64,000 nucleotides of DNA from Planctomycetaceae bacterium (lineage in GTDB: Bacteria > Planctomycetota > Planctomycetia > Pirellulales > Pirellulaceae): NCBI GenBank assembly GCA_005778405.1, contig SXOA01000029.1, positions 1 to 64,000 on the forward strand, written 5' to 3'. Positions 4,396 to 29,744 of this stretch are shown in pieces. Position numbers and translations under genes: made by a program. The notes under the pieces are model-generated. The model saw nothing but the letters and a program-made list of their open reading frames with translations, made no database searches and was not told the origin of the DNA. Numbering within the stretch: the first letter of the stretch is position 1; the number at the start of each line of letters is the position of its first letter.

Positions 4396-4865
4396 TTCGG
4401 GTTATGGCCATCTGCCTTTTCCGCCAGAGTGACGAGATATTGGTGACGGAAGGGCTCGATACAACGAACAACCAGCGCTACGCACGACCGCTAGGTGGCG
4501 GAGTTGAACTGGGCGAGACTTCCGAACAAACCATCGTCCGGGAAATTCGCGAAGAGCTGGGCGCGGAGATACGGGAGCTGAAGTTGCTGGGGGTGCTGGA
4601 GAATCTGTTTGAATTGGAAGGCCAGCTGCGGCACGAAGTGGTTTTTGTGTATGACGGCCAGTTTGCTGACCAATCGCTCTATGAATTGGCGGAGATCAAG
4701 CTGCTCGATGGCGAATGGAGGACCGGAGCAATCTGGCGGCCGCTGGAATGGTTCGGCGACGAGTGCATGCTGGTGCCGGTGGGGATTGAGAAGTTACTAC
4801 ATTTGCCCGACGCGCCAGCGCGGGAAATCCGTGCGGCACCGCCCGCGTTCGGCGCGGGTCTCTGA
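4392..4865 (+). CDS. NUDIX hydrolase
   Basis: Hydrolyses a nucleoside diphosphate linked to another moiety; the substrate is unknown. The Nudix box is clear: GGGVELGETSEQTIVREIREELGAE at about residues 34-58, matching GX5EX7REUXEEXGU. Of 157 residues the last dozen (RAAPPAFGAGL) are encoded by the left arm of a nested palindrome that also supplies the TGA stop, so the original C-terminus may have been different. The start overlaps the preceding stop codon (ATGA). Confidence 0.9.
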   Translation: MIRVMAICLFRQSDEILVTEGLDTTNNQRYARPLGGGVELGETSEQTIVREIREELGAEIRELKLLGVLENLFELEGQLRHEVVFVYDGQFADQSLYELAEIKLLDGEWRTGAIWRPLEWFGDECMLVPVGIEKLLHLPDAPAREIRAAPPAFGAGL

Positions 4866-4952
4866 CTCCGCCGAAACATTCTGACCGTAGGTCTCCTCTC
4901 CGGCGTCCGGGAGACCTTCGGTCGGGACGAGGGCGGGGTCGGAGACCCGCGC
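4852..4952. repeat. Nested (cruciform-capable) palindromic element
   Basis: Outer arms 4852-4872 and 4932-4952 (21 bases, two mismatches, core GCGCGGGTCTC / GAGACCCGCGC) enclose inner arms 4883-4896 and 4910-4923 (GACCGTAGGTCTCC / GGAGACCTTCGGTC, one mismatch). The element begins inside the NUDIX gene and gives its last codons and stop. It lies between convergent genes and might also end transcription both ways. Confidence 0.8.
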
Positions 4953-4997
4953 CCAACCTCAAGCACAATTCTCTCGATTGGGCGTCGGGCTAGTGTT

Positions 4998-5594
4998 TTA
5001 CCCTGCCGCCTTCTTGCTCCGCTTCCGAGCCCGTGCCTTGTTGAGGCTCTGGTGCTCGCCGCGGAGGATGCCGCAGACGATGAGATCTTCGTACTGGCCC
5101 CATTTGCAGCGATGGCGGCGAAGGATGCCTTCTTGCTTCATTCCGAGTTTGGACATCACGCGGCCAGAGGCGGGGTTGCGAGCGAAGTAGTTGGCGAATA
5201 CTCGTTCTAACTCCAGCGTCTCGAAGGCGTAGCCCAGAATCGCGGCGGCGGCTTCGGTGCAGATGCCCTGGTTCCACCAGGCTTTGCCGATCCAGTAGCC
5301 AAGCTCGCCGTGATGGTCCACCTGGTTGAGTAAGAGCCCGATGGAGCCGATCAGCGGGCCGTCTTTCAGCGTGATCCCGAACGAGACCCCCTCCCCTTTC
5401 TCATACCGCGGCTGGAGCGAGGCGATCCAGGTTTCCGCCAGGCCGTCCGGATAGGGATGCGGGATAAGCCGCGTGGTGTCGGCGACTTCGCGATCGCCGG
5501 CGAGGAGCTGGATGGTGTTAGCATCCGCAAGCGCGAGCGGGCGCAACAAAAGGCGTTCGGTCGATAGAGTTGGTTGCGTGGTTTTGGCGGTCAT
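4998..5594 (-). CDS. GNAT acetyltransferase, RimJ/RimL-like
   Basis: A 198-residue N-acetyltransferase of the RimJ/RimL (Acetyltransf_3) type. The N-terminal TERLLLRPLALADANTIQLL is characteristic, followed by GELGYWIGKAWWNQGICTEAAAAILGYAFETLELERVFA, which holds the acetyl-CoA-binding beta-bulge and Q/RxxGxG/A-like region, and NPASGRVMSKLGMKQEGILRRH, the usual closing segment. Members acetylate ribosomal protein N-termini, antibiotics or small metabolites; the substrate is not deducible. The lysine/arginine-rich tail (KARARKRSKKAAG) is extra. Confidence 0.9.
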   Translation of the reverse strand: MTAKTTQPTLSTERLLLRPLALADANTIQLLAGDREVADTTRLIPHPYPDGLAETWIASLQPRYEKGEGVSFGITLKDGPLIGSIGLLLNQVDHHGELGYWIGKAWWNQGICTEAAAAILGYAFETLELERVFANYFARNPASGRVMSKLGMKQEGILRRHRCKWGQYEDLIVCGILRGEHQSLNKARARKRSKKAAG

Positions 5595-5610
5595 GACGGA
5601 AAGGCAAGGA

Positions 5611-5747
5611 TTTGAACAGAAGGGAACGAAGAAAGGCAGAGGGAGGAAGGAAGGTGAGCGAGATCGAGCGACTGCCAGAATCCAACTGACCCCAAGTAGA
5701 TTTCTTGTCTATCTTCCCCTTTGTTACCTTCGTTTCCTTCTGTTCAA
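5611..5747. repeat. Imperfect palindrome, TTTGAACAGAAGG family
   Basis: TTTGAACAGAAGGGAACGAA at 5611-5630 is matched in reverse complement near 5729-5747 (TTCGTTTCCTTCTGTTCAAA), with one mismatch. The middle is purine-rich on the left and pyrimidine-rich on the right. It fills the gap between two minus-strand genes (acetyltransferase downstream-promoter side, transglutaminase stop side). No coding potential is seen. Confidence 0.75.
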
Positions 5748-5770
5748 ACTCGTTCTGACTCCTTGTGTAA

Positions 5771-7378
5771 TTATTCGATTTCGACGATTTCCAGTTCCAG
5801 TTGGTTGAGCACCTGTGCCACCGACGCCATCGCGGCCAGTGACTCCGAGCCCTTCAGATTCGAGTCCCCCAGCTTGATGTGGTCGCAGCCGATGCCGCCG
5901 CGGCCGAGGGTGGCATCCATGGGGATCCAGCGGTCGCTCATCCAGACCTCCGTCCACATATGGTAGGCAAAGCCGCCGAGATGTGCGGAGTAAATGAGGC
6001 CGAAGGCGACTCGGGCGGGGATCTTGCGGGCCCGGCAGAGAGCAGCGAAAAGGACGGAATGCTCGGTGCAATCGCCGGCTTTGGTGCGGGCGACTTCCGC
6101 CGCCGTGGCGAGGGCGCTGCCAAAGTTTTTGTCCGTAATGGTTTCGTCGACGAATTTTTCCAGAGCGCAGGCGACTTTCCAAGAGTCCCTTTCTTCGGTC
6201 GCGATGGAATTGGCTAGGCGGATGATTTCGGCGTCGTCGCTCTGGATGTAGCTAGTGGGAAGCAGGTCGTCCGCCGCAGGCTTCGGGATGGCTTCTTTGA
6301 GCGTTTTCGGGACATCGGGGCGGACGCCGGTGATGATGAGCCGGGCGGAGTGCTTGTCGATTGCTTCTAGTTGCTGGCTCAAGCCGTTGGAACAAGACTT
6401 GGCGGGATCGCCTTCCTTCAGGCGGACGAGGTAAACGACGCGGTGGGCGGAGGATAGATCGGCAGCGATTTCAGCGGGAGTCCCTCGCTTGCGCTTCGGG
6501 TTAGTGGGCTTCACGACCGTGCTGCGGAGCAAGTCGACTTCTCCGATGGTCGCCAGGTTCGTGGCGATGGACTTTGTGGTGCGATAAGTTTCAAGGCCAA
6601 ACGGCTGGCGGGTCTTCAGGATTTCGCCTTTGTCGGTCACCCACAATTCCGAATCGAGGGATTGCTCGCCCAGAGCAATCGAGGCTCGCACCTTGAGCAG
6701 CTTTTGCTCGCCCGTGAGGAGTTTGGTTATTTCGAAATCCTCCGCGGAAAGCTGAGTGGTTGTCGGGGAATTAAGCGGCGCGGTGAGAGCGACGATGGTC
6801 CGCTGTTCCTTGGGCCTGAGCGGCCGTTTGCGGAGCGATTCGTCGACCGCCACATAGCCGCCGTATTCCGGCAGCCAGTCGAACGATTGCCGTTGCGTTT
6901 TGCCAATCGTGAGCGTGCGGGTGCGGAGCTTGTTCCCTTCAATTTCTCCGCTGCCAAGTGTTTTGGAGCCGCCTCCTTCCATCTGGCTTTCGAACCGGAC
7001 CAATTTGCCGTCCGCGGTCTGCCAGCAGGTGAAAGTCATCTTCTGTTCCGAAGACTGGCCGTCCCGCTTGAGATGCAGTTCCCCCGTTTGCCGGCAGCGA
7101 ATGAGTGTGGCGTCTCCCTCGCGAACCTTGGCAATTTCAGTATTGGTAAAGCCGACCTTAACCCCCTGCAGGTAAGTCTCTTCCCAGATTTCCTGGATTA
7201 CCTCGGCGGGAGTCTCAGCGGGGAGGTTTTCGACAGCCTCTTTGACCTCTCCCTTTTCAGCGACCAATCGCGGCTTGGGCTGCGTAGCAAATTCGGTAGC
7301 GGCCGGTGGCGAGCAGCCGCTGGCGAGGAAAACCGTCAGGCACACAGTCGTGAAGCGAAGAATGGGATGGACGGGCAT
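5771..7378 (-). CDS. Transglutaminase-like lipoprotein
   Basis: A 535-residue protein with a lipoprotein signal (lipobox LASGC, Cys22), so probably membrane anchored. The C-terminal transglutaminase/cysteine-protease core carries the triad Cys437 (KAGDCTEHSVLFAALCRA), His473 (FAYHMWTEVW) and Asp488 (WIPMDATLG). The long N-terminal half (about 50-330) lacks a recognised domain and is probably beta-rich. The start at 7378 is chosen since it begins the signal peptide; the longer frame to 7465 adds an unlikely 29 residues. Proteins of this build act as proteases or amidases on cell-envelope targets in planctomycetes; the target is unknown. Confidence 0.85.
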   Translation of the reverse strand: MPVHPILRFTTVCLTVFLASGCSPPAATEFATQPKPRLVAEKGEVKEAVENLPAETPAEVIQEIWEETYLQGVKVGFTNTEIAKVREGDATLIRCRQTGELHLKRDGQSSEQKMTFTCWQTADGKLVRFESQMEGGGSKTLGSGEIEGNKLRTRTLTIGKTQRQSFDWLPEYGGYVAVDESLRKRPLRPKEQRTIVALTAPLNSPTTTQLSAEDFEITKLLTGEQKLLKVRASIALGEQSLDSELWVTDKGEILKTRQPFGLETYRTTKSIATNLATIGEVDLLRSTVVKPTNPKRKRGTPAEIAADLSSAHRVVYLVRLKEGDPAKSCSNGLSQQLEAIDKHSARLIITGVRPDVPKTLKEAIPKPAADDLLPTSYIQSDDAEIIRLANSIATEERDSWKVACALEKFVDETITDKNFGSALATAAEVARTKAGDCTEHSVLFAALCRARKIPARVAFGLIYSAHLGGFAYHMWTEVWMSDRWIPMDATLGRGGIGCDHIKLGDSNLKGSESLAAMASVAQVLNQLELEIVEIE

Positions 7379-20923: not shown

Positions 20924-21048
20924 ATGTAGGCCGTCTTTCCAAGACGGCTGGGAAGGTGCGTGGCGCTCGGTAAGCAGTCGTTTCGCGAAAAAACGTTCCT
21001 CAAGATTCGACGACCACTCCTGGCCGTCTCGGAGAGACGCCCTACTTA
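20924..21048. repeat. GTAGGcCGTC...GACGcCCTAC long palindrome, copy A
   Basis: An intergenic element of about 125 bases bounded by GTAGGCCGTCTTTCCAAGAC at the left and CCGTCTCGGAGAGACGCCCT at the right, with a central TTTCGCGAAA palindrome. It shares this layout and several blocks (CGTCTTTCCAAGACG, TTCGCGAAA, CACTCCTG) with the element at 63059. It lies between convergent EF-G-like and korB genes, so a bidirectional terminator role is possible. Confidence 0.8.
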
Positions 21049-22062
21049 TCCCACCGTCCACGTCTCGCCGCTGTTGTAGAGGGCGTTGAGGTCTCCTTCC
21101 CCCTTCTTCTCCCGGGCGGCAGTGATCTGGCGATTGAGCTCGACGTCGTACTTGGGGCCGTCCACATCGCGGAACACGCCGATCGGCTCGGGGAATTCCG
21201 GATGCCGCATGCGGCTGAGGAGGTAGGCCAGAGTGGGCTCAGGGGCTTTCTCGTCATGGAAGAGGAGGTCATCCTCGGAGATTCCTTTGCCCAGCTCAAC
21301 GACTTCGGGATGAGTGCCGTTGAGGCGGATTCCCTTGTTCTTGGCCTTGCCAAAGATGAGGGGCTTGCCATGCTCAAGCTCCAGGACGTTGTCGTGCTTG
21401 GTCTCTTTGCTGGTGGCGTAATCCCAGGCTCCGTCGTTGAAGACGTTGCAGTTCTGGTAAATCTCGATGAAGGCGGTTCCCTTGTGCTCGGCGGCCCGCT
21501 TCATCACTTCGCCCAGATGCTTGATGTTCACGTCGATGGAGCGGGCGACGAAAGTCGCTTCGCAGCCGATGGCGACGGAAAGAGGATTGAGAGGGTTATC
21601 GATCGCCCCCATCGGCGTACTGACAGAGACTTTGCCCAGCGGGGAAGTAGGTGAATACTGCCCCTTGGTCAGGCCATAGATGCGGTTGTTGAAGAGCATG
21701 ATCTTGAGATCCACGTTGCGGCGAATCAGATGCATGAAATGGTTGCCGCCAATGGAGAGACCATCCCCGTCACCGGTAACGACCCACACCTGCAAATCCT
21801 GGCGGCTCGATTTCAGACCCGTGGCGAAAGCCGGGGCCCGCCCGTGGATGCTGTGCAGGCCGTACGTGTTCATGTAGTAAGGAAACCGGCTGGAGCAGCC
21901 GATGCCAGAGATGAAGACGACGTTCTCGCGGGCAACGCCGAGCTGCGGCATCACCTTCTTCATCTGGGCGAGAATCGCATAGTCCCCGCAGCCGGGGCAC
22001 CAGCGGACATCCTGGTCGGAAGCAAAATCGGCGGGAGTCAGGGTCGGGAGTTCAGTGGGCAT
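21046..22062 (-). CDS. korB: 2-oxoacid:ferredoxin oxidoreductase, beta subunit
   Basis: Thiamine-diphosphate-binding subunit of a 2-oxoglutarate/2-oxoacid:ferredoxin oxidoreductase, which converts a 2-oxoacid, CoA and oxidised ferredoxin into acyl-CoA, CO2 and reduced ferredoxin, reversibly. The 338 residues show WCPGCGDYAIL (21-31) with iron-sulfur/TPP-associated cysteines, GIGCSSRFPYY (53-63) and the ThDP/Mg motif GDGDGLSIGGNH (97-108) followed by NNRIYGLTKGQYSPTS. It lies downstream of the alpha gene, separated only by a repeat. The 2-oxoglutarate preference (kor) is a guess from the GLTKGQxSPT pattern; other 2-oxoacids are possible. Confidence 0.92.
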   Translation of the reverse strand: MPTELPTLTPADFASDQDVRWCPGCGDYAILAQMKKVMPQLGVARENVVFISGIGCSSRFPYYMNTYGLHSIHGRAPAFATGLKSSRQDLQVWVVTGDGDGLSIGGNHFMHLIRRNVDLKIMLFNNRIYGLTKGQYSPTSPLGKVSVSTPMGAIDNPLNPLSVAIGCEATFVARSIDVNIKHLGEVMKRAAEHKGTAFIEIYQNCNVFNDGAWDYATSKETKHDNVLELEHGKPLIFGKAKNKGIRLNGTHPEVVELGKGISEDDLLFHDEKAPEPTLAYLLSRMRHPEFPEPIGVFRDVDGPKYDVELNRQITAAREKKGEGDLNALYNSGETWTVG

Positions 22063-22069
22063 GGTGAGT

Positions 22070-22125
22070 TTTCAGTTTTCAGTGTTCAGTGTTCAGATTT
22101 CATTCGTCATTCGAATTTCGTCATT
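22070..22125. repeat. TTCAG tandem plus half of the CATTCGTCATT palindrome, copy 2
   Basis: Short tandem units TTTTCAG / TGTTCAG at about 22069-22096 lead into CATTCGTCATTCGAATTTCG-TCATT, the right half of the family seen at 17834. The final TTA of the element is the korA stop codon (minus strand). The matching left arm is missing, so this copy looks truncated. Confidence 0.75.
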
Positions 22126-24073
22126 AGCCACCGGCGTCTCCACTCCCGGCAATTCCCGACACGGCGGCGGTTGCCGTCGGCTTCGACCCGTTCGCGCTGG
22201 CCAGGCCAAGCTGTCCGCGGATGGCGGCGACGACTTCCTGGACGAAGAACGGGCGTCCCTGGATCTTGTTGAGCCCCTGGGCATCGACCAGGTACTTGGA
22301 GCGGATGATCATCCGGAGCTGTCCCTTGTTGAGCTCGGGGACGAGAACTTTCTTGTATCGCTTGAGGACGTCTCCCAGGTTTCGCGGGAACGGGTTGAGC
22401 CACCGCAGGTGCGCGTGAGCGACCTTGATCCCTTGCTCCTGGCATTGCTCCACGGCGGTCTTGCAGGCACCGTAAGTGCCACCCCAACTGAGCACGAGCA
22501 AGTCGCCGGTCTCCGGCCCTTCCACTTCCTGCAAGCCGATAAGCTGGGCGACGTTATCGACCTTCTTTGCTCGAGTGTGGACCATGTGCTCGTGGTTCTC
22601 GGGCTCGTAGTTCACGTTTCCGGTCACGTCCTGCTTTTCCAGACCGCCGAGACGATGCATGAGTCCCTTGATGCCCGGGATGCCCCAGGGACGAGCCAAC
22701 AATTCGTCCCGCTGATAGGGCTTGAATTTCTCGCCGTTTTCGCTCGGAACGGGATGGTGAATCGGGATTTTTTCCAGCTTGTTGTAATCGGGAATTAGCC
22801 ACGGTTCGCTGCCGTTGGCAATGTAGCCGTCAGACAGGACCATCACCGGCACCATCATGCGGCTGGAGATCCGCCAGGCTTCGATAGCCGCGTCAAAACA
22901 GTCGCCAGGGCTGCGAGCGGCGATGACGGGCATCGGCGACTCACCATTGCGGCCGAGAATCGCCTGGAATAGGTCAGCTTGCTCGGTTTTTGTGGGAAGT
23001 CCAGTGCTCGGTCCGCCGCGCTGAATATTAATGACGAGGAGAGGCAGCTCCAGCATGATGGCCAGGCCAATTCCCTCCCCCTTGAGGGCGATGCCGGGAC
23101 CGCTGGAAGTGGTGATGCCCATAGCGCCGCCGTAGGCCGCGCCGATGGCCGAACAGACAGCGGCGATTTCGTCTTCCGCCTGGAAAGTTCGCACGCCGAA
23201 GTTTTTGAACTTGGAAAGCTCGTGCAAAATGTCGCTGGCCGGAGTAATCGGATACGAGCCGAGGAACAACTCCTTGCCGCTCAGCTTGGCCGCGGTCATC
23301 AAGCCCCACGCCATCGCGGTATTCCCCTTCATGTTCTTGTACTTGCCCGGGGGGAGTTGGGCAGGCTCCACCTTGTAGCTGCTGGTAAAAGCGTCGGTCG
23401 TTTCGCCATAATTCCAGCCCGCCCGCATGGCCTTGGTGTTTGCGGCAATGATCTCCGGCTTATTGGAGAACTTCGACTGTAAATAGCGAAGGGTCGGCTC
23501 CTGGTCCCGTCCGTAGAGCCAATAGACCAATCCCAGCGCGAAGAAGTTCTTGCAGCGGTCAACCTCCTTGGTTCCCAGACCGGTGTCTTTCAGGGCTTCT
23601 CGCGTGATCTTCGTCATCTGCACTTTGAAGAGCTGGTACTGATCCTCCAGAACCTGGCTATCGAGCGGGTTGACATCGTAGCCCGCCAGATCCAGGTCGC
23701 TCTTCTGAAAGTTGTCGCTGTTGCAAATGAGGATGCCACCCTTCCGCAAGTCGCGCAGGTTCGTCTTGAGAGCGGCCGGGTTCATCACGACAAGCGCGTC
23801 GAGAGTATCTCCGGGCGTGAAAATGTCTTCGCTGGAAAAATGGACTTGAAAACCGGAGACACCGGCCAGCGTGCCGCGGGGAGCACGAATCTCAGCCGGG
23901 TAATCAGGGAAAGTGGCCACGTCGTTCCCCAGCAGGGCGGACGTGCTGGTGAACTGGTCCCCAGTGATTTGCATGCCGTCCCCGGAGTCGCCACAAAAGC
24001 GGATCGTCGCGCTGGGGACCGGATTGACTGTCTTGGGATTTGCTACTTCTGGCTCAGCCGTAGTGGTGGTCAT
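22124..24073 (-). CDS. korA: 2-oxoacid:ferredoxin oxidoreductase, alpha subunit (gamma-alpha fusion)
   Basis: The 649-residue chain joins an N-terminal gamma domain (RFCGDSGDGMQITGDQ, then FPDYPAEIRAPRGTLAGVSGFQVHFS, about 15-190) to the alpha (pyrimidine-binding) domain from about 240 (GNTAMAWGLMTAAKLSGKELFLGSYPITPASDILHELS; GISTSSGPGI-like TTSSGPGIALKGEGIGLA; RGGPSTGLPTKTEQADL). It partners with KorB. The ATG at 24073 is taken; an in-frame TTG nine bases upstream has a better-spaced AAGGG and is a real alternative. The gene is downstream of a CBS protein on the same strand (196-base gap), which could sense adenine nucleotides. Confidence 0.93.
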   Translation of the reverse strand: MTTTTAEPEVANPKTVNPVPSATIRFCGDSGDGMQITGDQFTSTSALLGNDVATFPDYPAEIRAPRGTLAGVSGFQVHFSSEDIFTPGDTLDALVVMNPAALKTNLRDLRKGGILICNSDNFQKSDLDLAGYDVNPLDSQVLEDQYQLFKVQMTKITREALKDTGLGTKEVDRCKNFFALGLVYWLYGRDQEPTLRYLQSKFSNKPEIIAANTKAMRAGWNYGETTDAFTSSYKVEPAQLPPGKYKNMKGNTAMAWGLMTAAKLSGKELFLGSYPITPASDILHELSKFKNFGVRTFQAEDEIAAVCSAIGAAYGGAMGITTSSGPGIALKGEGIGLAIMLELPLLVINIQRGGPSTGLPTKTEQADLFQAILGRNGESPMPVIAARSPGDCFDAAIEAWRISSRMMVPVMVLSDGYIANGSEPWLIPDYNKLEKIPIHHPVPSENGEKFKPYQRDELLARPWGIPGIKGLMHRLGGLEKQDVTGNVNYEPENHEHMVHTRAKKVDNVAQLIGLQEVEGPETGDLLVLSWGGTYGACKTAVEQCQEQGIKVAHAHLRWLNPFPRNLGDVLKRYKKVLVPELNKGQLRMIIRSKYLVDAQGLNKIQGRPFFVQEVVAAIRGQLGLASANGSKPTATAAVSGIAGSGDAGG

Positions 24074-24269
24074 GACTGGCAATCTGCCCTTTTGAAATCA
24101 GTGTTCGCGTGAATTTTAGTTTTATCGGCGGCCGCTCGTAGGGCGGCGGAATGTCTCTTGGCAAAGGCCCGGCAAACGGGTCAATCAGTATCGGACTTTC
24201 TGAATAATAACTCTATTTGGAATGTACGGCCCGAAAAACGGACCGATTTGTAACGAAAATGAGGGCTGT

Positions 24270-24734
24270 TTATCCCCCGTCCCGTTCTTCCATCTTGTGG
24301 TGTGGCGAGGGGGGCAAAGTGTAAATAATCCGGGGAAAATGCTCGACCAGAAAGCGGAGCACCCCAGCCACCCCCACCACCCCGGTTACATGCCCCTGAC
24401 CGTCCACAATCGGAACCTGGCGGAACTTGCCGCTGGACATCAAGGAAATCGCCTTTCCCACGCTTTCGCTCATCCGCATGGAGACCGGCTGACGGACCAT
24501 GGCGGTGGAAACGGGCACATCCAGGTCGCTGCCGTCCGCTAATTGCTTGAGCGCGTCCCGCTCGGTAAAAATGCCTTCCAGCTTCCCTTCGCGGCAGACC
24601 ATTGCAGCGCTCGTGGCGCTCGATTTGAGCACGCGCATGACATGGCGAATGCTGTCACTGGGCAGTACACAGACCGGCTTGGTCGGATGAGCCTGCTCGA
24701 CCGACTCGGTCTCAAGATGAAGCTGAAAATCCAC
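24270..24734 (-). CDS. Two-CBS-domain protein
   Basis: A 154-residue protein made of paired CBS domains (about 15-70 and 75-135): VCVLPSDSIRHVMRVLKSSATSAAMVCREGKLEGIFTERDALKQL, then VSTAMVRQPVSMRMSESVGKAISLMSSGKFRQVPIVDGQGHVTGVVGVAGVLRFL. CBS pairs bind adenosine nucleotides and usually regulate a partner. The start is GTG (24732-24734). It lies first in a minus-strand series with korA and korB and head to head with the fwd cluster, so control of either is possible but unproven. Confidence 0.88.
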   Translation of the reverse strand: MDFQLHLETESVEQAHPTKPVCVLPSDSIRHVMRVLKSSATSAAMVCREGKLEGIFTERDALKQLADGSDLDVPVSTAMVRQPVSMRMSESVGKAISLMSSGKFRQVPIVDGQGHVTGVVGVAGVLRFLVEHFPRIIYTLPPSPHHKMEERDGG

Positions 24735-25581: not shown

Positions 25582-25743
25582 ATGCTTCAAAAACCAGTTC
25601 TCGAGTCACCGGCCGGATCGGACGGACCTCATTTTTCCTTTGCGGAAGAGGGGGCAAGCGTAGCGGGCTGGACCGAGATCGAAGCGGGTCGATTCATGCC
25701 TCGCCGCGTGCGCGGCAGCTATCAGGGACGGGCACTGGGCTGA
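25582..25743 (+). CDS. Possible small protein between fwdD and fwdB
   Basis: A 53-residue frame beginning with ATG after AGAGGATTCTCAGC (a weak but plausible ribosome site). The C-terminal half is strongly basic with the pattern GWTEIEAGRFMPRRVRGSYQ followed by GRALG. It reads like a genuine short protein: codons are GC-biased like the neighbours. I have an impression that this ending recurs in short planctomycete proteins, but I cannot name a family. No function proposed. The remaining bases 25744-25914 show nothing recognisable. Confidence 0.4.
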   Translation: MLQKPVLESPAGSDGPHFSFAEEGASVAGWTEIEAGRFMPRRVRGSYQGRALG

Positions 25744-25914
25744 GTGTTTACCGTTCCCTCGTCCGGTTCGGACGACACACAGTGCCAAGAGAAGCAATAA
25801 CAACAACAGCGATTTTGAGGAAAGGTAATCACGCCGCAGACCGGGTAAACTGCCGGCAACTAACTGTTGCCCACCGGAATGCGATCGTGAAGCCTACGAT
25901 CATGAACCATCTCC

Positions 25915-27255
25915 ATGGAACTTCAGGTAATCAATAACGCCACGTGCACGTTTTGCGGCTGCGTTTGCGACGACATTCAACTCCATCATGACGACGTTCG
26001 CATCCACAAGGCGAACAAAGCCTGCGTGCTGGGAACCGCCTGGTTTCTGAACCACACGGCAGAAAAAAAATATCCCGACGCCCTGATTGATGGCCGGGAA
26101 GCGACTCTGGACGAGGCGATTGAAGCAGCCGCCAATTTCCTCTACGAAGCCGACATGCCGCTGGTCTACGGCATGAGCAACACGACCTGTGAGGCTCAAA
26201 AGGAATGTGTCGCCCTGGCGGACCAGCTCGGGGGGCTGCTCGACAGCCACACTTCGTTGTGACACGGTCCCACCGAGATCGCCGCCCAGTTGGGCGGCAA
26301 AGTTACTTGTACGCTGGGCGAAGTCAAACAACGAGCCGATTTCATCATCTACTGGGGAGGGAATCCCGCGGAGTGCCATCCACGGCATTTCACCAAGTAC
26401 ACCATCATGCAGAAGAGCAAGTTTCTGCCCCGCGGCCGCAAGGACCGCACGATGGTGCTGGTCGATATCCGCGAAACCAAGAGCGCCAAAGCCGCCGACA
26501 TTTTTCTGCAGGTGCGGCCCGGCAAGGACTTCGAGTTGATCACCATCCTCCGGGCTCTCATTAAGGATCGGCAGGTCAGCGACCAGGCGATTGCGGAGAC
26601 GGGCCTGACGCGGGAGGTGATCGACGACCTGATCCGGCGGATGAAGGGGGCCAAGTTCGGCTGCGTATTTTTTGGGATGGGGCTGTCCATGACGCGCGGC
26701 AAGCACATGAACAGCGCCGCGCTGCTCACGCTGGCCGCGGAAATGAACGCCTTCACCAAGTTCGTGGCCATGCCCATGCGAGGCCACGGCAATGTCACAG
26801 GTGCCGACGTCATCATGCGGTGGCAGACCGGCTATCCCTTCGGAATTTCCTTTAGCCGCGGCTATCCGCGCTATAATCCCGGCGAGTTCTCCACCGTGGA
26901 CGTGCTGGTTCGCGGCGACTGCGACGCAGCTTTCATCATTGGAGCCGATCCCGGCGCGACAATGCCCCAGCCGGCGATTGACCACCTGAAGCGGATTCCG
27001 ACCATTGTGCTGGACCCGCACGTCACGCACACCAGTAAGCTGTCGCGGGTCCACATCACCACGGCTCCACAGGGAATCGCCGCACCGGGAACGGCTTATC
27101 GGATGGACGAGCTTCCCATGCCATTGAAACCCGCCCTGAAATCCCCGTACCCTTCCGATGAAGAAGTCGTCCGCCGGATTAACGAGGCGATTGCCAAAAA
27201 GCCGTTCTGGCTCCCCGACGGAAGTCAGCCCCAGATGCTCAACGCACAGGTATAA
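25915..27255 (+). CDS. fwdB: Formylmethanofuran dehydrogenase subunit B, selenocysteine-containing (in-frame TGA at 26260)
   Basis: Catalytic subunit that would reduce CO2 to formate (or oxidise formate) at a Mo/W-bis-pterin centre, with FwdA handling formate and the C1 carrier. Read as one frame of 446 residues, the N-terminus has a [4Fe-4S] motif Cys11-x2-Cys14-x3-Cys18 ... Cys37 (CTFCGCVCDD; KACVLG). TGA codon 116 lies in HTSL-U-HGPTEIAAQ; in FwdB/FmdB the metal ligand at this spot is Cys or Sec, next to a conserved His-Gly-Pro. The downstream frame stays open and conserved to 27255 (DFIIYWGGNPAECHPRH; RPGKDFELI; YWGGN). A hairpin of bacterial SECIS form follows the TGA. Alternatives: a nonsense mutation or base error. 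Split annotation as 25915-26262 and 26290-27255 would be wrong if Sec is inserted. Confidence 0.85.
26260..26298 (+). promoter_or_regulatory. UGA selenocysteine codon with bacterial-type SECIS hairpin
   Basis: TGA 26260-26262 is followed by a perfect 7-bp stem GCCGCCC (26281-26287) / GGGCGGC (26292-26298) closing the tetraloop AGTT (26288-26291). Twenty-five bases separate the TGA from the loop, and a G is the second loop base; bacterial SECIS elements lie within the coding sequence just after UGA with a short stem and a G early in a small apical loop. Archaeal SECIS elements lie in untranslated regions instead, so this form fits a bacterial SelB. Confidence 0.75.
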
Positions 27256-27264
27256 TCCCACTCC

Positions 27265-28905
27265 ATGCTTCGCATCACGGGCGGAAAAGTCTACGACCCA
27301 GCCAACGGCATCGACGGCGTCGTCAAGGATCTGTGCATCGACGACCAGGGCCTGTTCGTTCCCGCGGTGGAAGGTGGCCGAACGATCGACGCGACAGGAA
27401 TGATTGTCTTTCCCGGCGGCGTGGACGTTCACACGCACGTGGCCGGCGGCGCGATCAATTTCGCCCGAGCCATGACGCCGGAGGATCATCGCCGCACCCA
27501 GGCGTTCATTCGCACCAAGTCGCGCCGCAGTGGATTGGGCGGCATGGCCCCCACCACCTTCGCCACCGGCTATCTCTATGCCGGCATGGGCTGGACAACG
27601 GTCAACGAAGCGGCTGTGCCGGTCCTATCCGCCCGGCACACGCACGAAGAGCTGGCCGATATTCCAATTGTGGATAAAGCTTCGCTGACGCTGATGGCGA
27701 ACAACGAGATCCTGCTCGATCAGCTCGAAAAGGGAGAATTCGAGCGTGCCAAGCAGGTTCTCGCCTGGTATCTCTGGTCGGCCAAGTCCTACGGCATCAA
27801 GGCGGTCAATCCGGGCGGAGTCGCGGCTTGGAAATATGGCCACGACGCCAAGCAGCTCACGTCACCCATTGATGGCTACAGCAAGCTGACCCCCGGCGTG
27901 ATTGTGACTCACCTCGCCCGGATTTGCGATGAGCTTGGCCTGCCGCATCCGGTCCATTTGCACTGCAACAATCTCGGCGCTCCCGGCAACATCTCGACGA
28001 CAATCGACACTCTAAAGCACCTAGAAGGGCACCGGGCCCACATTGCCCATTCTCAGTACCACGCCTACGGCGGCGATGGCTGGGACACCATGTGCTCGGA
28101 AACGGCTCAGCTTGCCGAATACTTCAACGCCCATCCGAGCATCACGACCGATGCGGGAGCCGTCTTGTTCGGCGACACGGTGACCATTACCGCTGACGGA
28201 CCATGGCAGCACCTGCTGTACAAGCTGACCGGGCGGAAATGGGGGAACCTGGACGTCGAAAACGAAACGGGCTGCGGCATCGTCCCCTACACCTACCGCC
28301 CCAGCAACCTCGTCAACGCGGTGCAATGGGCGGCTGGGCTGGAGCTGCTGCTGCTCATCAAGAATCCGTGGCAAGTATTTCTCTCCACCGACCACCCCAA
28401 CGGCGGCTGCTTTTGGCGGTATCCGGAGATTATCGAGTTGCTGATGCGGGCGGATGTTCGCAAAGAATCCCTTCTGAAACTCCCCGACGGCATCAAGGGA
28501 AAAATCACGCTGCCGGAGATTGACCGCGAGTATTCGCTCTATGAAGTCGCCATCTCCATGTCAGCCGGCCCGGCGCGGGCGCTGGGGCTGTTCCAAAAGG
28601 GCAACCTTGGCCTGGGCTGCGATGGCGATGTGGTGATTTATGAAGAAGACGAAAACGTGCGGAAAATGTTCGGCCATCCGCGCTATGTCATCAAAGGAGG
28701 GGAGATCGTGCTGGAAGACGGCGAGATTCGTGAAGCGCCGTCAGGACGCGAGTTCATCGTGAAACCGCCATGCGACCCCGGCATCGACGATTTCATGAGG
28801 CCGCTGTTCGAGGACTGCTACACCATGTCGTTTGAGAACTATCCGGTGGAAATGGAGCGCATCCACAACCCCAGGATGCAAGACTGCATCGAAGTGCCAC
28901 GCTAA
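27265..28905 (+). CDS. fwdA: Formylmethanofuran dehydrogenase subunit A (amidohydrolase)
   Basis: A 546-residue amidohydrolase-superfamily subunit with a binuclear metal site that interconverts formate plus the amine C1 carrier (methanofuran or a bacterial analogue) and the formyl carrier. Visible ligands: His56 and His58 in GVDVHTHVAGG, a candidate carboxylated Lys179 in GIKAVNPGG, HLHCNN (231-236), RAHIAHSQYHAYGG (257-270) and STDHPNGG near 400. Length and motifs match FwdA/FhcA. It begins nine bases after fwdB ends, so the two are clearly one operon. The carrier in planctomycetes is inferred. Confidence 0.95.
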   Translation: MLRITGGKVYDPANGIDGVVKDLCIDDQGLFVPAVEGGRTIDATGMIVFPGGVDVHTHVAGGAINFARAMTPEDHRRTQAFIRTKSRRSGLGGMAPTTFATGYLYAGMGWTTVNEAAVPVLSARHTHEELADIPIVDKASLTLMANNEILLDQLEKGEFERAKQVLAWYLWSAKSYGIKAVNPGGVAAWKYGHDAKQLTSPIDGYSKLTPGVIVTHLARICDELGLPHPVHLHCNNLGAPGNISTTIDTLKHLEGHRAHIAHSQYHAYGGDGWDTMCSETAQLAEYFNAHPSITTDAGAVLFGDTVTITADGPWQHLLYKLTGRKWGNLDVENETGCGIVPYTYRPSNLVNAVQWAAGLELLLLIKNPWQVFLSTDHPNGGCFWRYPEIIELLMRADVRKESLLKLPDGIKGKITLPEIDREYSLYEVAISMSAGPARALGLFQKGNLGLGCDGDVVIYEEDENVRKMFGHPRYVIKGGEIVLEDGEIREAPSGREFIVKPPCDPGIDDFMRPLFEDCYTMSFENYPVEMERIHNPRMQDCIEVPR

Positions 28906-28928
28906 CTGTGCTTGCCGGGAAGTCAGGA

Positions 28929-29744
28929 ATGCCCATCACCTTTCACCTCAAACGCCAGCCCTCGGTTCCCCTGGAGTCCGAGGTCTTCTCGCCGGATGTC
29001 ATGGCGGAGCTGACCAATACCGAAATCCGTGCACTCACCATCTATCACGGCAAACGGCAGCTCCCCATCAGCGACTTTTTTGACGTCGAAGGGGAACGGA
29101 GCGAAGACCTGGTGATGCATGGCGCGATGCACAAGGTCCGCTGGATTGGCCGGGCCATGTCCAGGGGGAGCATCACCGTGCATGGCACGGTCGGGATGCA
29201 CCTGGGAGCCTACATGAAGGGGGGCCGCATCGAGGTCCACGGCAACGCCAGCGACTGGATCGGAGCCGAAATGAAGAATGGCTTCATCCACGTCCACGGC
29301 AATGCCGGCGGGCAGATTGGCGCCGCTTACCGCGGCTCGATGCAGGGGATGAAAAACGGCACCATCATCATCGACGGTTCAGCAGGGCTCGAAGTCGGCA
29401 TGCGGATGCGTCGGGGAACGATCATCGTCGGCGGCCCCGCCAAGGACTTCACCGGCCTGCAAATGAAAGGGGGGACCATTGTCCTGATGAGCGGCGCCGA
29501 AATCCGCACTGGCGCCTGGATGAACCGCGGCACCATTATCTCCCTCAAGCCGCTGCAACTGATGCCCACCTTCGTCCGCTCGGTGGACGCCAGCCCCATG
29601 TTTGTGAACGTCCTGGCCAAGAATCTCAAATCGCTTGGAATCAACTTGCCCCACAAGGCCAGCGAGGGGACTTACCGGCAGTTCGCGGGGGACCTGAGTG
29701 TTTCTGATAAGGGGGAAATCCTGGTCTGGCAACCCGTTGCATAG
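28929..29744 (+). CDS. fwdC: Formylmethanofuran dehydrogenase subunit C
   Basis: Structural subunit with a right-handed beta-helix related to the glutamate synthase GXGXG domain. The 271 residues contain the repeating pattern GxxxHGxxGxxxGxxMxxGxI, such as GSITVHGTVGMHLGAYMKGG, GRIEVHGNASDWIGAEMKNG, GFIHVHGNAGGQIG and GTIIIDGSAGLEVGMRMRRG. The ATG at 28929 (AGTCAGGA upstream; MPITFHLK) is preferred to the GTG at 28908. It closes the D-B-A-C series; no formyltransferase (Ftr/FhcD), polyferredoxin (FwdF/G) or mch gene follows within the window. Confidence 0.93.
   Translation: MPITFHLKRQPSVPLESEVFSPDVMAELTNTEIRALTIYHGKRQLPISDFFDVEGERSEDLVMHGAMHKVRWIGRAMSRGSITVHGTVGMHLGAYMKGGRIEVHGNASDWIGAEMKNGFIHVHGNAGGQIGAAYRGSMQGMKNGTIIIDGSAGLEVGMRMRRGTIIVGGPAKDFTGLQMKGGTIVLMSGAEIRTGAWMNRGTIISLKPLQLMPTFVRSVDASPMFVNVLAKNLKSLGINLPHKASEGTYRQFAGDLSVSDKGEILVWQPVA

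Follow-up and report, generated by a model that had tools for sequence, protein, structure and literature searches.

The 64,000-nt stretch of DNA analysed here (the window) contains the genes fwdD, fwdB, fwdA and fwdC of a predicted formylmethanofuran dehydrogenase, together with a small UGA-containing ORF located between fwdD and fwdB (Table 1). Retranslation of fwdB revealed a single internal stop, TGA at codon 116, preceded by the residues LLDSHTSL and followed by HGPTEIAAQLGG, with the frame intact until the stop at 27253-27255. This agrees with the sequence-only reading, which had described one in-frame TGA (26260-26262) in an otherwise continuous 446-residue FwdB. FwdD was recognised by phmmer matches to FwdD structures, its score against the NCBIfam FwdD model (64.9 bits) being below the exception-type cut-off of 175. 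In relatives, fwdD is conserved as a neighbour of fwdB, and the gene order fwdD-fwdB-fwdA-fwdC is preserved in nearly all loci of sufficient length.

Table 1. Features of the fwd operon in the window.
Feature	Position	Strand	Evidence or remark
fwdD, molybdopterin-dinucleotide-binding subunit D, 111 aa	25174..25509	+	phmmer to FwdD structures 2ki8, 5t5i_D
small UGA-containing ORF, 72 aa, predicted Sec at residue 54	25582..25800	+	between fwdD and fwdB
predicted Sec codon TGA of the small ORF	25741..25743	+	invariant, 77/77 loci
SECIS-like hairpin of the small ORF, TCGTCCG-GTT-CGGACGA	25759..25775	+	covariation, bSECIS rules
fwdB, formylmethanofuran dehydrogenase subunit B, 446 aa with predicted Sec116	25915..27255	+	TIGR03129
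predicted Sec codon TGA of fwdB	26260..26262	+	TGA in 101/101 Sec-clade loci
bSECIS hairpin of fwdB, GCCGCCC-AGTT-GGGCGGC	26281..26298	+	z = -2.5
fwdA, amidohydrolase subunit A	27265..28905	+	TIGR03121, 657 bits, cut-off 392.75
fwdC, subunit C	28908..29744	+	TIGR03122, 264.7 bits, cut-off 130.65

Upstream of the operon and divergent from it, genes for the beta and alpha subunits of a 2-oxoacid:ferredoxin oxidoreductase (KorB/KorA) occupy 21046-24082 on the minus strand, and a CBS-domain protein (24270-24734) is located between these genes and the fwd operon. The oxidoreductase was considered as an electron partner and rejected, since no KorA/KorB match was found near the fwd loci of relatives. 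Within the window no FwdF/G-like electron-transfer gene adjoins the operon, and Rfam searches at gathering thresholds gave no matches across the window. The genome from which the window derives carries two formyltransferase (FhcD-family) genes.

Translated through the TGA, FwdB scored 496.6 bits against NCBIfam TIGR03129 (cut-off 327.8), with the match extending over positions 1-420 of the 421 in the profile. In alignment with the archaeal chains 5t5i_B, 8rja_B and 9sfi_Q, the N-terminal CTFCGCVCDDI of the planctomycete protein matches CPFCGTLCDDI. As the sequence-only reading had anticipated from the archaeal enzymes, residue 116 coincides with Cys118, the metal ligand of Methanothermobacter wolfei FwdB (5t5i_B, SVCHGPS), and with the residue printed as X within the same motif in 9sfi_Q (SVXHGPS).

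The ligand codon was TGA in all 101 Sec-clade loci that were fetched, which are 71-92% identical to the query; some of the 101 came from overlapping fetches, so that they represent 86 distinct 60-nt contexts, derived from many independent genome projects. In the next clade, at ca. 55% identity, the codon is TGC or TGT. A corresponding division was seen when 60 related genomes were examined: ten genomes had FwdB homologues 72-91% identical to the query with one TGA each, and full-length homologues of at most 58% identity had no TGA. When 84,980 species genomes were scanned, 80 FwdB loci were obtained, all at least 73% identical. In more distant FwdB paralogues the ligand position holds Gly, Ala, His, Tyr, Arg, Asp and other residues.

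In a tree that included only four archaeal sequences, the Sec FwdB proteins formed one clade with 100/100 support, with hosts labelled as Pirellulales/Pirellulaceae, Gemmatales/Gemmataceae and Phycisphaeraceae. One of the carriers of the operon is in culture, namely Planctomycetes bacterium K23_9 (CP036526; locus L128). Sec-FwdB was also present in metagenome-assembled genomes labelled Acidobacteria gp6 and Candidatus Kuenenia (loci L162, L131 and L159), of which L162 nests within the planctomycete Sec clade; either gene transfer or mis-binned or mislabelled contigs may account for these three cases. Many planctomycete FwdB paralogues have neither Cys nor Sec as the ligand residue, Gly, His, Tyr, Arg, Asp, Glu, Lys, Phe and Ser being found instead (L050, L052, L053, L061, L062, L063, L066, L067, L068, L175 and L176), which on sequence grounds suggests several losses of redox function towards an Fhc-like state.

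A second FwdB is encoded in the same genome as the window (L049:7951-9267, minus strand; G000:C178:39953-41233). This protein is 45% identical to the first and carries Cys (TGC) as the ligand; thus, Sec and Cys isoforms of FwdB coexist in the genome. The gene of the Cys isoform adjoins moaA and a cysteine desulfurase gene related to selenocysteine lyase SclA.

The genome search proposed in the sequence-only reading identified the complete machinery for selenocysteine. A tRNA-Sec (selC) was detected with 65.5 bits (cut-off 47) and an anticodon TCA assigned by ARAGORN, and SelB (368 bits), SelA (558 bits) and SelD (271 bits) each exceeded the respective cut-off. Among the 60 genomes, tRNA-Sec above the cut-off was present in 11/11 of those with TGA-FwdB and in 21/49 of the others (Fisher p = 0.0004).

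Bacterial SECIS elements are described by a loop of 3-9 nt, a stem of 4-16 bp, a G in the first two loop bases, a spacing of 16-37 nt and a minimum free energy of at most -7.5 kcal/mol (PMC13188914). The hairpin in fwdB conforms to these rules, with a 4-nt loop AGUU that begins 25 nt past the UGA, a stem of 7 bp and -16.5 kcal/mol. The loop was AGUU in all 86 distinct contexts and the six inner pairs were formed in 82 of them, compared with 0/39 of the non-TGA homologues. Furthermore, codons 124-126 (Ala124-Gln125-Leu126), which encode the loop side of the hairpin, ranked as the top three in synonymous conservation among 215 conserved-residue columns. The codon of Leu126 is almost always TTG (86/86 by one count and 80/83 by another, the difference probably originating from secondary matches within loci in the latter), when TTG makes up only 24% of the Leu codons in these genes. 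These frozen codons provide independent evidence of selection on the fwdB RNA in addition to the protein. Synonymous resampling of the single window sequence gave a weak signal (P = 0.047), and the strength of the hairpin evidence is due to conservation across loci.

Reading of codon 116 as selenocysteine, which the sequence-only reading had put forward, is accordingly very well supported by the TGA of relatives, the Sec machinery, the bSECIS hairpin and the ligand alignment. The possibility that codon 116 is a genuine stop, the mark of a pseudogene or an error of sequencing has a negligible probability: the TGA does interrupt the fwdB frame, but it recurs in 101 loci of independent assemblies, lies exactly at the catalytic ligand, and is followed by the hairpin with its frozen codons. 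In addition, third-position differences predominate on both sides of the TGA when fwdB is compared with its relatives, and downstream of it the differences from locus L086 were 21/15/138 at codon positions 1/2/3. Equally little credence is given to reassignment of UGA in the lineage to another amino acid, e.g. Trp. In-frame UGA codons in two conserved genes would be expected of such a code, but TGA ends 6/29 ORFs of the window as an ordinary stop, the genome has tRNA-Sec with the full Sel set, and the residue of the next clade at the FwdB site is Cys, not Trp.

The further claim that a bacterial Sec-FwdB would be a new member of the bacterial selenoproteome did not hold, because Kim et al. had reported Sec-FmdB in 2016. 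According to the main text of that paper, FmdB is a selenoprotein in the planctomycete P2 (Rhodopirellula), encoded in the order fmdD-fmdB-fmdA-fmdC; P2 has both Sec and Cys forms of FmdB, a related fosmid originates from Lake Washington, and Sec-FmdB is marked in two unclassified bacteria (PMC4807772). In a review of 2026, FwdB is likewise marked as a selenoprotein, in bacteria as well as in archaea (PMC13188914). The novelty of the locus seems to lie in the apparently undescribed small UGA-containing ORF adjoining fwdB; the main text of PMC4807772 makes no mention of a second UGA-containing ORF between fmdD and fmdB. The sequence-only reading did not mention this ORF just upstream of fwdB either.

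An ordinary ORF listing with a limit of 80 aa did not contain the small ORF. It came to light when the sequences between fwdD and fwdB of relatives were aligned, a step prompted by the apparently excessive length of this spacer for an operon (405 nt in the window; median 370 nt). Before the TGA, the ORF reads MLQKPVLESPAGSDGPHFSFAEEGASVAGWTEIEAGRFMPRRVRGSYQGRALG (25582-25740). Of the 78 scanned loci in which the FwdB match is preceded by 700 nt or more, 72 contained the ORF; the six loci without it were the Sec loci L125 and L126, in which neither the small ORF nor FwdD was matched at the thresholds used, and L172, L173, L176 and L180, which carry Cys or other non-Sec residues.

In 77/77 copies the internal TGA is at the same place, and the frame continues for 11-54 codons after it (median 19). 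The second residue after the TGA is Phe in 77/77 (TTC 39, TTT 38) and the fourth is Val or Ile in 64/77. Before the TGA, the differences among copies show a third-position excess (12364/11824/40962 by codon position). The final stops are mixed (TGA 34, TAA 29, TAG 14); a preference for one stop codon therefore does not explain why residue 54 is uniformly TGA. On the basis of 68 aligned sequences, in which codon 54 appears as C, the form in which the tools pass U, the residues W30, G36, R37, P40, R42, G45, S46, G49, L52, G53, the Sec position and F56 are invariant (68/68), and the motif is W-x2-[IVL]-x2-GR[FY]-x-P-x-R-x-x-GS-x-x-G-x-x-LG-U-x-F. No conserved Cys was found near the Sec position in the aligned sequences, which speaks against a thiol redox pair of the CxxU or UxxC kind.

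The hairpin following the TGA of the small ORF is supported by covariation. Across an alignment of 45 sequences without gaps, 95.6% of the cells of the 8-pair helix were paired, with compensatory changes in five of the eight pairs and 29 double-change cells against a shuffled expectation of 6.6 (0/500 shuffles). Pairing fell to 23-49% when the partner was slid by 1-3 columns. All bSECIS rules were satisfied by 72/77 sequences, and the other five miss the strict rules.

In the genomes sampled, the small ORF was confined to those with TGA-FwdB. In the 60-genome set, the small protein was found in 11/11 TGA-FwdB genomes and in 0/49 of the others, where the lone match was at chance level and contained two stops (E = 0.006). 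Among 392 genomes drawn evenly from the phylum, nine further genomes carried the small ORF with its TGA, and 9/9 of them also had TGA-FwdB; a tenth genome, G117, gave a marginal partial match (E 9e-4). A profile search of the same 392 genomes returned no Cys form of the small protein. No sequence matches were obtained from Pfam, NCBIfam or PDB, and the motif fits none of the 119 prokaryotic selenoprotein families tabulated in PMC13188914. AlphaFold2 with 28 or 68 sequences gave no confident fold (pLDDT 58.6, pTM 0.26 in one of the two runs): the model contains a short beta-hairpin and is otherwise of low confidence, which would fit a peptide that becomes folded on binding a partner.

At two loci, L161 and L153, the small ORF is separated from Sec-fwdB by 1.4-1.5 kb and still adjoins fwdD. 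The interval of L161 (4549-6000) contains unrelated ORFs, one of which resembles by eye a nucleotidyl-transferase/toxin-antitoxin gene, and that of L153 contains a further fwdB copy (4547-5857), in which the ligand residue is Thr. A gap similar in size to that of L153 is present between the small ORF and Sec-fwdB in L160.

Two other explanations of the small ORF were weighed against a selenoprotein. An ordinary protein of 53 residues that ends at the TGA, with the hairpin as an unrelated regulatory or RNA-stability element, is distinctly improbable. In its favour, TGA can serve as a stop, and the portion far beyond the hairpin is variable in both sequence and length; yet TGA occupies this position in 77/77 copies and accounts for only 34/77 of the later stops, and the invariant Phe at +2 is encoded with synonymous variation, within a stretch (codons +1 to +5) that again shows a third-position excess (4173/3478/7303 by codon position). 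The rules of hairpin spacing, loop and G, kept in 72/77, are satisfied after only 49/417 (11.8%) of the ordinary TGA stops in the same loci, and in the genomes sampled the ORF tracks Sec-FwdB perfectly.

Unlikely as well is a selenium-sensing leader peptide, in which read-through or stopping at the UGA would control expression of fwdB. Its position upstream of fwdB, the predicted Sec codon and the presence of a second FwdB with Cys would suit such a role, and methanogens switch between Se and non-Se isoenzymes, Methanopyrus kandleri being cited in the main text of PMC4807772. Against this, the amino acids are under strong purifying selection, as indicated by the third-position bias and the invariant W, G, R, P, L and F, which is atypical of leaders, and in L161 and L153 the ORF has remained beside fwdD with other genes separating it from Sec-fwdB. 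The sequence evidence supports the small ORF well as a new selenoprotein family. It is quite likely that this family, previously undescribed, comprises proteins of ca. 50-110 residues with the core motif GR[FY]xPxRxxGSxxGxxLG-U-xF, which occur only with Sec-FwdB and may serve as a subunit, a redox relay or a cofactor-insertion partner.

Concerning the type of complex, the alignment of FwdA with 5t5i_A and 8rja_A shows that its metal-site motifs (HxH, carboxylysine-context, HLHCN and (S/T)TDxPN) have been kept. Because of these motifs, the presence of FwdD and the CxxCGxxCDD cluster motif at the N-terminus of FwdB, and because FwdB matches FhcB (6s6y_B) only over residues 235-368, the features are those of a redox-type enzyme rather than of an Fhc hydrolase. 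A formyltransferase/hydrolase (Fhc) complex without redox activity could be proposed, as the characterised bacterial homologues (6s6y) are of this type and in many planctomycete paralogues the ligand site is occupied by Gly, His, Tyr or other residues; it is, however, very unlikely for this operon, in which FwdB retains the cluster motif as well as the ligand position and can be aligned over its full length with the archaeal redox-type FwdB.

The overall explanation that we favour, with a probability of about 0.9 on the sequence evidence, is a Sec-FwdB operon accompanied by a small selenoprotein, both UGA codons being read as Sec. The operon fwdD - small ORF - fwdB - fwdA - fwdC would then specify, in a bacterium, a formylmethanofuran dehydrogenase of the full archaeal type. 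As the ribosome meets the UGA at 26260, Sec-tRNA-Sec would be delivered by SelB on the hairpin at 26281-26298, and Sec116 would become the Mo/W ligand of FwdB. In the Fwd mechanism, CO2 is reduced to formate at the pterin, and formate tunnels to the [Zn-Zn] site of FwdA for condensation (PMC11656701). Correspondingly, FwdBD is expected to interconvert CO2 and formate, in whichever direction the reaction may run, and FwdA to attach or release formate on a methanofuran-like carrier. The UGA at 25741 would be read likewise through the hairpin at 25759-25775, giving a selenoprotein of ca. 72 residues, which may act as an accessory subunit or a maturation partner of the Sec-type Fwd complex. Since neither a homologue nor a confident fold was found, gene neighbourhood is the one line of evidence on its role, and it points to an accessory subunit of the Fwd complex as the probable function.

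These results indicate that a selenium-dependent, archaeal-type formylmethanofuran dehydrogenase is predicted widely in planctomycetes, i.e. in genomes labelled Pirellulales, Gemmatales and Phycisphaerae, and standard annotation truncates the Sec-fwdB of these bacteria at the UGA. Provided that it is real, the small selenoprotein represents a further family, for which neither a Cys form nor a homologue was found, and its strict association with one enzyme makes the function directly testable. If confirmed, it would also imply that selenoproteins shorter than ca. 100 residues have been overlooked when UGA is treated as a stop.

Among known systems, the bacterial Fhc complex (6s6y) has homologues of the A, B and C subunits, and differs in that FhcB is only partly matched (235-368), when the ligand motif and FwdD are present here. 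In VhuU of methanogens, a tiny Sec-containing hydrogenase peptide constitutes a separately encoded piece of a large redox complex. The small protein is alike in being a very small selenoprotein and, by its suggested role, a separate piece of a large redox complex; unlike VhuU, it has no UxxC motif and occurs only with Fwd genes, and no sequence relation between the two was seen. The Sec-type formate dehydrogenase FdhA (1kqf) shares the Sec-H-x-P ligand motif (PMC13188914), but FwdB is distant from it (TIGR01591 58.7 bits, cut-off 666). Archaeal FwdB/FmdB (M. wolfei 5t5i and 8rja; 9sfi) have in common with the planctomycete protein the TIGR03129 family, the [4Fe-4S] motif CxxCGxxCDD and Cys or Sec before H-G-P, whereas the present operon has a bacterial host, a bacterial-type SECIS directly downstream of the UGA, no FwdF/G genes beside it, and a separate predicted small selenoprotein. 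The Sec-FmdB of P2 and the Lake Washington fosmid, as presented in the main text of PMC4807772, in turn resembles the FwdB described here in the Sec at the ligand position and the order fmdD-fmdB-fmdA-fmdC, and P2 is, as here, a planctomycete host.
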